64,000 nt of DNA, taken from positions 1-64,000 of the forward strand of contig CAJTDE010000016.1 in assembly GCA_910574835.1 (NCBI GenBank). Direction: 5' to 3'. Origin of the DNA: Clostridia bacterium. Its GTDB lineage: Bacteria; Bacillota; Clostridia; Lachnospirales; Lachnospiraceae. A program made the translations under genes and the position numbers. Below, one piece after another: positions 5,310 to 44,428 of this stretch. Position 1 is the stretch's first letter, and every line of letters begins with the position of its first letter. The notes below the pieces were generated by a model that ran no database searches, was not told the origin of the DNA, and saw only the letters and a program-made list of their open reading frames with translations.

Positions 5310-5324
5310 ATGATAACCTCCTGT

Positions 5325-5366
5325 TTAAATCGCTGCGCGATGGCACGAAAGGGTAAAGCCGCTTCA
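5325..5366 (-). repeat. Dispersed hairpin repeat, half copy 1 (before asnB)
   Basis: Read on the minus strand this is GAAGCGGCTTTACCC, then TTTCGTGCC, then the small stem-loop ATCGC-GCA-GCGAT, then TTTAA, followed at once by the asnB ribosome site AGGAGG. It matches the 3' half of the full copies at 18395-18518 and 43316-43440. The 5' arm is absent. The small stem has A-T at its base where the full copies have G-C. Confidence 0.8.
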
Positions 5367-12839: not shown

Positions 12840-12858
12840 ATAAATACCTCCTAATTTT

Positions 12859-12927
12859 CAAATCGCTGCGCGATAGCGCTAAAGGGTAAAATCACTTCAG
12901 CACACCTGTAATGAGAGAAACTTTTAT
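12859..12927 (-). repeat. Dispersed hairpin repeat, half copy 2 (before the binding-protein gene)
   Basis: Minus-strand ATAAAAGTTTCTCTCATTAC, then AGGTGTGCTGAAGTGATTTTACCC, TTTAGCGCT and the stem-loop ATCGC-GCA-GCGAT, followed a few bases later by AGGAGG of the binding-protein gene. The repeat supplies the stop codon (TAA) of the permease upstream. Only the 3' half of the element is present. Confidence 0.8.
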
Positions 12928-13889
12928 TTTGCTTCTTTTCTCCTTCTTGCCTGATCGATAAATACGGCCAGTGCAAGCACCAATCCTACAATTGCAGACT
13001 GTATCTCAGAGGACACCTGCATAATGCGCAGGCCATTGGTCAAAGAGCTGATAATCAGCGCTCCAATAACCGTTCCTGCAATGCTCCCTTCTCCTCCTGT
13101 CAGAGAATTGCCTCCGATAACGGCGGCCGCAATCGCATCCAGCTCATAACCGGCTCCCAATTGGGGCTGTGCCGAATTTAAACGTGATGACATAATCAAA
13201 CCTGCGATTCCGCAGAACAGTCCGCAGAGAGAATAGATGCCGATCTTCCAGCTATCCACCTTGATTCCTGACAGCCTGGTTGCCTCTTCATTGGAGCCAA
13301 TGGCCAAATCGTAACGGCCAATCAGGGTTTTGCTGAAAATAACATGGGCAATCACTGCTACTATCAGAAAAATAATAATTGCGTTATAAAAGCCCTTAAT
13401 CCCTAAAAACTCCCCAATGGCAATCTTCTGATAATTGGGCGCACCTGTAAAATATACAGGCTTAATCCCGGATATCACCAAGGACAATCCCTTTGCAATC
13501 ATCTGCATTGCCATAGTCGCTATAAAGGGCGGTAAATACATTTTGGCAACGGCAAATCCATTCACCGCACCGCAAAGCGCGCCTACACAGAAACCAAAAA
13601 GAATAGAAATCCATAAGGGCCATCCCCATACGCTGAACGCTGTTCCGCTCATTACACAGGACAGCGTCATAACCGTTCCTACGGAAATGTCAATCCCGCT
13701 TGTAATAATTACAAAGGACACTCCGATAGCAAGGGTGCCGTTCACACAGGTAGACAGCAGGATTGTCATAATGTTGTCATACCGTATATACGCCGGGTTC
13801 ATAATTGCGAAAAATATCAGCAACAGGATAAATGTACCAATAATAATAATTTTTTGTGATAAATCTTTATTTTTCCGTATTCCTTTCAA
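12924..13889 (-). CDS. Sugar ABC transporter permease (RbsC-like), system 1
   Basis: A 321-residue integral membrane subunit of a CUT2 importer (BPD_transp_2 family) with about 8-10 hydrophobic helices. Typical motifs are GVSFVIITSGIDISVGTVM near residue 55 and the coupling-helix region AAAVIGGNSLTGGEGSIAGT near residue 255. It starts with TTG, eight bases after AGGAGG. Its stop codon lies inside the hairpin repeat. The ATPase gene precedes it by 18 bases, so the three subunits are made from one transcript. Confidence 0.92.
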   Translation of the reverse strand: MKGIRKNKDLSQKIIIIGTFILLLIFFAIMNPAYIRYDNIMTILLSTCVNGTLAIGVSFVIITSGIDISVGTVMTLSCVMSGTAFSVWGWPLWISILFGFCVGALCGAVNGFAVAKMYLPPFIATMAMQMIAKGLSLVISGIKPVYFTGAPNYQKIAIGEFLGIKGFYNAIIIFLIVAVIAHVIFSKTLIGRYDLAIGSNEEATRLSGIKVDSWKIGIYSLCGLFCGIAGLIMSSRLNSAQPQLGAGYELDAIAAAVIGGNSLTGGEGSIAGTVIGALIISSLTNGLRIMQVSSEIQSAIVGLVLALAVFIDQARRRKEAK

Positions 13890-18380: not shown

Positions 18381-18394
18381 ATCTCTCCTCCTTT

Positions 18395-18518
18395 TTAAGT
18401 CGCTGCGCGACGGCACTAAAGGGTAAAGTCGCTTCGACACACCTGTATTGAGAGAAGCTTTCATTCGAAAGGACACGCATGAAAGTTCCTCTCGTGCGCC
18501 TTTGCGACTTTACCGTCC
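18395..18518 (-). repeat. Dispersed hairpin repeat, full copy 3 (before the ASRT gene)
   Basis: Minus strand: GGTAAAGTCGC pairs with GCGACTTTACC, GGCGCAC pairs with GTGTGTC, and GAGAGGAACTTTCAT pairs with ATGAAAGCTTCTCTC, around a loop of about 14 bases. The 3' tail holds the small stem GTCGC-GCA-GCGAC, then TTAA, then the ribosome site AGGAGG of the ASRT gene. Compared with the copy at 43316-43440, GTC/GAC replaces GCC/GGC and TTTCAT/ATGAAA replaces TTTTAT/ATAAAA. Both are paired changes that keep the stem. A 13-base box ATAATCCGGCTAA lies upstream (18554-18566), as it does beside the other full copy. Confidence 0.85.
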
Positions 18519-18569
18519 AGCTAAAAATGTTTTTCAAAATCACTTGACATTTCTTAGCCGGATTATCTT

Positions 18570-27620: not shown

Positions 27621-27674
27621 TATGAAAAGAATCAACGGGACTGGAATATTACTGAACTGGAATAGGAGGACCAT

Positions 27675-43280: not shown

Positions 43281-43315
43281 TATGACAAACCTGGAAATAA
43301 TCCGGCTAATCTGCC

Positions 43316-43440
43316 GTACGGTAAAGCCGCAACGGCGCACGAGAGGAACTTTTATGAGTGCCCTTTCGAATAAAAGTTTCTCTCATTACAGGTGTGCCGA
43401 AGCGGCTTTACCCTTTAACGCCGTCGCGCAGCGACTTAAA
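43316..43440 (+). repeat. Dispersed hairpin repeat, full copy 4 (before the dnaC-like gene)
   Basis: GGTAAAGCCGC pairs with GCGGCTTTACC, GGCGCAC with GTGTGCC, and GAGAGGAACTTTTAT with ATAAAAGTTTCTCTC, around GAGTGCCCTTTCGA. The tail carries GTCGC-GCA-GCGAC and TTAAA, directly followed by AGGAGG of the dnaC-like gene. ATAATCCGGCTAA lies just upstream (43297-43309), as in the full copy at 18.4-18.6 kb. Confidence 0.88.
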
Positions 43441-43456
43441 ATAGGAGGATGCATCT

Positions 43457-44428
43457 TTGCCTTTATTAAACTCCCAATATGAAGCTATCATGCGCTCCTA
43501 TGCCAAACGCCAGGCCAGAAACCGCCAGGAGCAGGAGGAACGTCTCGCTCATATCTATAACTTAATACCGCAGCTGCCCTCGCTGGAAGCCTCCCTTGCC
43601 TCCCTGCGGGCAGACAAGGTTCGAGCCGCCATAGAGGGGGATACGGCAGCGCAGGAGCATTTGACGCAGGAGCTGGATAAGCTTTGCAATGCAAGAGAGC
43701 AGCTTTTATCAGCGCACGGTTATACCTTACAGGACTTGTCAGCCTCCTACACTTGTCCGGACTGTCACGACACCGGCTACATAGGAACAGAAAAATGTCA
43801 CTGCTTTCTTCAAGCCGAAATCGATCTTCTCTACCATCAATCGCACCTGAATGATGTTTTGAAAAGAGAGAACTTTCATACCTTTTCTTATTCCTGGTAT
43901 GATAAGGCTGACCAGGACATTATGAAGCGCCGTGTAATGGAGGTACAGCTTTTTATTGAAGCCTTTGACAAGGAATTTCAAAATCTATTCCTGATGGGAG
44001 ACGTCGGAACCGGAAAAACCTTTCTCTCCAATTGTATTGCGAAGGAACTGATGGACACCGGACATTCTGTCGTTTATCTCACTGCCTTCCAACTGTTTCA
44101 GCTCCTTTCCAAAGCCGTATTTGGAGGAAAGCAGCCAGAGGAAGCGGACCGGCAGGCATATCCCTATATCTTCGACTGTGATTTGCTCATTATAGATGAT
44201 TTAGGAACGGAGCTTCCCAACTCTTTTACCGTATCTCAATTTTTCCTCTGCATCAATGAGCGGATTCTTCGAAGAAAGTCAACCCTGATTTCTTCCAACC
44301 TGAATATGAATGTTCTGCAGAGCATCTACTCAGAGCGAACATCATCACGTATCATCAGCAGCTATACTATTTTGCAGCTTCCCGGAAAAGATATACGCAT
44401 CCGGAAAAAACTACAGCCCGGCGCCTAG
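43457..44428 (+). CDS. DnaC/DnaI-like helicase loader (AAA+ ATPase)
   Basis: A 323-residue loader that places the replicative helicase on DNA. The N-terminus is helical and charged. CPDCHDTGYIGTEKCHC near residues 97-113 is a four-cysteine zinc-binding motif typical of Firmicute DnaI-like proteins. The AAA+ part has Walker A LMGDVGTGKTFLSN near residue 179, Walker B DLLIIDDLGTE and a sensor region STLISSNLN. It starts at TTG, eight bases after AGGAGG; that ribosome site directly abuts the hairpin repeat. It is in one operon with the DnaD-like gene. Confidence 0.93.
   Translation: MPLLNSQYEAIMRSYAKRQARNRQEQEERLAHIYNLIPQLPSLEASLASLRADKVRAAIEGDTAAQEHLTQELDKLCNAREQLLSAHGYTLQDLSASYTCPDCHDTGYIGTEKCHCFLQAEIDLLYHQSHLNDVLKRENFHTFSYSWYDKADQDIMKRRVMEVQLFIEAFDKEFQNLFLMGDVGTGKTFLSNCIAKELMDTGHSVVYLTAFQLFQLLSKAVFGGKQPEEADRQAYPYIFDCDLLIIDDLGTELPNSFTVSQFFLCINERILRRKSTLISSNLNMNVLQSIYSERTSSRIISSYTILQLPGKDIRIRKKLQPGA

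Follow-up and report, generated by a model that had tools for sequence, protein, structure and literature searches.

Bacterial MITEs and REP-type palindromic repeats are short, form hairpins and lack a transposase gene. The element described here, which we call A, is like them in being short and hairpin-forming, in having about 200 copies and in carrying no transposase gene, but is unlike them in that it lacks terminal inverted repeats, lies in the sense orientation at Shine-Dalgarno sequences (SDs) and has a left end like that of an IS110 transposon. According to PMC11208160, IS621 of the IS110 family has a CT core and its bridge RNA works in trans with a donor of 22 bp, and according to PMC11187229, cargo was moved in the ISEc11 system with the transposase and non-coding region in trans.

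The IS110 partner of A has much in common with IS110/IS621 as presented there (PMC11208160): a DEDD transposase, a core that reads CT on the strand of the transposase and AG in the sense of A, a long non-coding region ahead of the transposase gene, a fixed orientation at the target, and a target-guide-like stretch that precedes a donor-guide-like stretch in the transposase sense. It differs in that it targets the SDs of many genes, in contrast to the REP targets described in that text, and in that its putative guide resembles the anti-SD of 16S rRNA. The site- and orientation-specific insertion of the partner is also that of the IS1111/IS110 seekRNA elements, for which attC and REP targets are given, unlike the SD (PMC11187229). 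The word "Shine" is absent from the main texts of both papers, and among the matches listed in open-licence literature (titles and abstract openings) there was neither an SD-targeting IS110 element nor an IS110-derived MITE. The kind of system is known; what is new here is the SD as a target class, together with a probable IS110-associated MITE.

Element A and the genes behind it

The window, the whole stretch of 64,000 nucleotides that was analyzed on a contig of a gut bacterium of the Lachnospiraceae, holds four copies of A (Table 1), which at full length is about 165 nt. Their places and orientations had been correctly recognized in a preliminary description. The two half copies have lost their 5' part; of the two copies described as full, one retains the entire left end (18562 to about 18392), and the other, before the dnaC-like gene, is internally deleted in its left hairpin. 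The 11-mer TCGCGCAGCGA (at most one mismatch) is present four times in the window versus 0.9 expected, and four was reached in 1 of 100 shuffles. The AGGAGG is outside the repeat: inner units of tandem arrays do not have it.

Table 1. Features of the window that relate to elements A and B
Feature	Position	Strand	Remarks
Copy of A before dnaC-like gene	43301..43444	+	left terminal hairpin internally deleted; terminates at AG of AGGAGG
Long hairpin of A, imperfect (helices 1-3)	43320..43412	+	fold and paired changes
Small 3' stem-loop of A, GTCGC-GCA-GCGAC, helix 4	43423..43435	+	paired changes
Target SD, AGGAGG (core AG followed by GAGG)	43443..43448	+	empty sites in orthologues
dnaC-like gene downstream of A, TTG start	43457..44428	+	
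Full-length A, left end intact	18391..18562	-	precedes the gene named ASRT in the preliminary description
SD AGGAGG following the 18391..18562 copy	18387..18392	-	
Copy of A ahead of binding-protein gene	12847..12928	-	truncated at 5' end
Copy of A ahead of asnB-like gene	5317..5365	-	truncated at 5' end
3'-end remnant of family B (..GAACTGGAATAGGAGG)	27652..27669	+	

The 5.0-Mb genome that carries A has 197 matches to a pattern of 24 bases from the 3' end of A that stops short of the SD, 98 of them forward and 99 reverse, with none to the reversed control; the 160-nt stretch of the preliminary description, a query that, unlike the 24-base pattern, included the SD, gave at least 84 matching pieces (133 contigs; 40 of 166 candidates scored). 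By DNA match, A is present in 7 of 15 other genomes of the genus (8 of 16 with its own genome; weakly in G006) and in 0 of 25 genomes from other genera. Acetatifactor muris DSM 23669 has the A pattern, and the other records, among the matches listed, were mostly from Lachnospiraceae. Head-to-tail arrays of A, with units of about 120 bp, occur at L003, L014, L026, L032 and L129.

When the orientation of A with respect to genes was followed through the genome, the check came out against randomness. Of 155 distinct 3' ends read at 100 loci of A's own genome, 109 have the SD and start codon of a sense ORF immediately behind them, 40 run into the next tandem unit of A, and six fit neither rule, three having a start without an SD and three neither (by eye, L198 and L233 of these six do have an SD). 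The start codon comes 16-27 nt after the GCGA of A. The 150 ends read in other genomes were followed by an SD and start in 81 cases, by another unit of A in 38, by a unit of another family, here called B, in 21, by a start without an SD in two and by other sequence in six, with two at the end of a locus. The genes behind A are unrelated to each other, and include prfA and efp-, plsX- and nifU-like genes (by eye from their starts).

Insertion of A at AG^GAGG within the SD

The comparison of L009 with L090, whose flanks are 97.9% identical, yielded a clean filled and empty pair: the empty site reads ...TTTTTACAGGAGGATTAGAACATG and the filled one ...TTTTTACAG/TCCGGC...AAAATAG/GAGGATTAGAGCATG (slashes at the junctions), A having entered AG^GAGG within an SD that is still intact. 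A inserts at this position with its right end facing the gene, and the SD is regenerated. Because there is a clean empty site at AG^GAGG, A is to be regarded as a mobile element with a strict choice of target and not primarily as a regulatory leader. The dinucleotide AG flanks 48 of 56 left ends of A in its own genome. Further units are found next to the SD, on the gene side of a unit that was already there; this is where L066 has an extra A compared with L223 (98.6%).

Orthologues of the dnaC-like gene (proteins 65-75% identical) were inspected by eye in the 16 genomes of the genus: A was seen in its own genome, G012 and G002, and in the other 13 an SD-like sequence stands shortly past the upstream stop codon. 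Before prfA there is, again by eye, A in its own genome and a B-type sequence in G012, G002, G013 and G007. At L026, L032, L036 and L220 the number of A units is unlike that of a close relative, and among 57 pairs of own and other loci many had no difference in length and others had gained or lost units. Some of these differences (L218, L214) look like recombination between units and not new insertion.

The 5' half of the hairpin is absent from 44 of 155 copies, yet 112 of 116 5' halves retain the 3' end, a pattern of many 5' truncations and a near lack of 3' truncations that could be had from a LINE-like retro-element copied from its 3' end. Such an origin seems to us extremely improbable. 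The left end is fixed among full copies of A, 3' retention is explicable by selection on the SD, and between L203 and L079 (100% flank identity) the truncated copy in A's own genome is a deletion that also took unique flank. It was on this deletion, one pair, that the LINE-like model was set aside.

An IS110 clade with the left end of A

The left end of A was searched in its own genome ahead of any search for IS110. There were 59 matches to AGTCCRGCTAAGAAATRTCAAG, and of 57 left ends read, 56 were in copies of A; the single exception, L240, lies about 100 nt past an IS110 transposase gene. The partner element (L240/L327) has the domains DEDD_Tnp_IS110 and Transposase_20 (PF01548, PF02371, NF033542), which place it in the IS110 family, and the left end of A, AG followed by TCCRGCTAAGAAATGTCAAG, is that of an IS110-family (bridge-RNA) transposon. 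All 22 bases compared are identical to A in the Peptoclostridium copy L346; another six loci (five elements) share 21, L327, the only member of the clade found in A's own genome, shares 20, and the distant members listed share 18. Outside A, the left end (up to four mismatches) was found only beside IS110 genes in 2.75 Mb of DNA that had been chosen for loci of A and of the transposase, bar one copy of A cut by the end of its locus.

Relatives of the transposase were found in 10 of 397 genomes of the family and 18 of 391 of the class (own genome in both), in 1 of 16 of the genus at E <= 1e-40, and in three plasmid records, namely Peptoclostridium acidaminophilum with seven copies and two Thermoanaerobacterium records with a site in common; there were none in the phage records searched. 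The clade occurs in Clostridia and inserts at AG^GAGG, the same dinucleotide and in the same orientation as A, and each of the nine plasmid copies is followed by an SD-like sequence and then a start codon. In the alignment of ten IS110 copies (two cut by contig ends), the right end falls on ...ATTATACTAG/GAGG or close by, about 190 nt beyond a guide-like stretch that itself contains AGGAGG. An AGGAGG within the non-coding region had been a candidate for the target and was rejected, as the alignment makes that AGGAGG the guide-like stretch.

Across 51 IS110 loci, which include several multi-copy genomes and one element counted twice (L355 and L376), the left end AG/[AT]CCRGCTA was present in 42. 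A right end was found in 49 by patterns drawn up after the junctions had been seen; GNGR is next in 36 of these and a start codon with an ORF in 39, and 20 of those 39 starts are 11 nt past the core. GNGR is missing from 13 right flanks, in two cases because the contig ends there; in the others the SD is weaker or shifted. The core AG (CT on the other strand) is conserved at both junctions; the motifs contain AG by construction, and the ten-copy alignment shows it independently. A remnant of IS110 at L301/L179 (G015:C34), in a genome without A matches, has an A-like end directly adjoining AAAAAAGGAGGAG.

There are also features in which A and the transposon are unlike. A has neither a transposase gene nor an evident SD guide (none was seen by eye), and its right end (..TTTTAATAG) differs beyond the AG core from that of IS110 (..TTATACTAG). 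The similarity of the A interior to an IS110 non-coding segment that ended at the guide, short of the true right end, was not significant (p = 0.37), and nor was that of the B interior to the same segment. In the genus, IS110 is scarce, in 1 of 16 genomes versus 8 of 16 for A, although IS copies may be missing from drafts. The different right end, the hairpins near both ends of A, its lack of inverted repeats and the absence of a clear target duplication beyond AG are what might be expected had A been moved by other machinery, e.g., a Y1 transposase of the IS200/IS605 type that recognizes hairpins at the ends, and had the IS110-like left end been captured or coincidental. We hold this to be very unlikely, given that 20-22 of 22 bases are common to A and the nearer IS110 ends and that core and target are shared. 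The model was rejected as Y1_Tnp does not track A: it is in 8 of the 16 genomes of the genus but was not found in A-rich G004 and G007 (drafts, in which absence is not proof).

A is, very probably, a non-autonomous (MITE-like) element of an IS110-type bridge-RNA-guided transposon programmed for insertion at SDs. The link is strong for the target and the left end, and the mechanism is one that we infer: transposase and bridge RNA would act in trans on A by way of its IS110-like left end, and survival of the SD would make insertion there tolerable. Both IS621 and ISEc11 can work with short ends when the RNA is supplied in trans, ISEc11 even when the transposase is too, and a trans-mobilized MITE is for this reason the simplest account of A.

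The putative guide of the IS110 clade, and the sense transcript of A

A stretch CC-AGGNRR was identified by rule in the non-coding region of 39 of 49 IS110 loci. In the transposase sense it reads like CACCTCC-TT, as expected of an IS621 left target guide; next comes a donor-guide-like TTTTAGCTGG (UUUUAGCUGG), which resembles the left ends of the IS and of A. When the eight bases after the AG of the stretch were compared with each copy's own target in 33 distinct pairs, which are phylogenetically non-independent, 190 of 264 positions matched, against 158.3 when shuffled (0/20000); counted per unique guide (16), there were 91.9 matches against 73.6 (0/20000). The excess is mostly at guide positions 5-7, outside the SD core (23, 21 and 16 versus 12.9, 12.7 and 10.1 expected), and unusual targets are mirrored by the stretch, GTGG by GTGG in L346, GGGG by GGGG in L353 and GAGACGA by GAGACGA in L343. 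There are poor matches as well: 1/8 in L328, 2/8 in L327, 3/8 in L364, and 4/8 in L333, L346 and L373. On statistical grounds, then, the candidate guide matches the target of its own copy. In a consensus fold of 17 IS110 non-coding regions, a clear two-loop bridge-RNA structure was not seen.

Judged from its sequence, the stretch would be the left target guide of the bridge RNA (...CACCTCC-TT in the transposase sense). It resembles the anti-SD of 16S rRNA, whose 3' end we take to be ATCACCTCCTT, and would recognize the same sequence as the anti-SD of the ribosome. With a guide that imitates the anti-SD, the transposon would find genes as the ribosome does. We think it likely that a Clostridia IS110 clade with such a guide enters and rebuilds the SD, and that its passengers (A, perhaps B) have thus placed a structured leader at more than 100 SDs of one genome, those of prfA and other housekeeping genes included. 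If so, this is a strategy in which a mobile element aims its guide RNA at a signal of translation that is nearly universal and keeps that signal functional, a natural choice of safe harbour; it would explain why leaders in Lachnospiraceae contain large families of sense-only repeats, and bridge-RNA recombinases could be aimed at SDs.

The long hairpin of A has a folding z of -7.35, and over 71 distinct copies (from 147 of 127 nt) the structure has 38 pairs, with 98.3% of cells paired. The paired changes reported in the preliminary description proved genuine, with 61 double-sided cells versus 18.3 in shuffles (0/500), spread over 9 of the 38 pairs, and only 1-4 such cells in slid-structure controls; further pair types were not in excess in this alignment (26 vs. 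24.7 shuffled, 101/500). In the sense transcript, mismatched pairs are mostly G.U (432 cells, vs. 60 of A.C, in 187 copies), a bias dominated by four pairs and not predicted for a plain MITE. With genuine covariation and G.U in the sense strand, selection on the sense RNA is possible. The bias is a hint of selection acting on the sense transcript, which today forms an mRNA leader, and A may thus have gained a leader function later.

The covariation, the G.U bias of an element lying in mRNA sense and the narrow distance to the start codon would equally be at home in a cis-regulatory leader RNA (a riboswitch, translational regulator or mRNA stabilizer) whose copies spread by duplication. That A is primarily such a leader is nonetheless unlikely. 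Rfam covariance models at the gathering score had no matches in the window, so no known leader RNA or riboswitch was recognized there, close relatives differ in the number of units, and a transposon uses the same site and orientation. The preliminary description had left two options standing. The functional 5'-leader RNA keeps its covariation and has lost ground, as the presence of A varies among orthologues and close relatives and the downstream genes are unrelated, while the repeat family with a strict insertion preference is favoured by the empty site, the A-free orthologues and the IS110 clade that shares left end and target. For A as a MITE, its hundreds of natural insertions offer a means of asking how a hairpin directly before an SD affects translation.

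An ATG frame within the hairpin (from 43354 of the window onwards) continues towards the SD in many copies. A conserved leader peptide was considered for it and rejected, the loop having one-base deletions and copy L037 an ATG-to-AAG change, and the frame probably does not represent one.

The palindromic family B, whose ends had no match to those of this IS110, occupies the same SD position also at L089, L091, L098, L122, L138 and L144. It is found between A and the SD, and elsewhere A is found between B and the SD. The arms of B change wholesale from copy to copy and stay complementary and palindromic.
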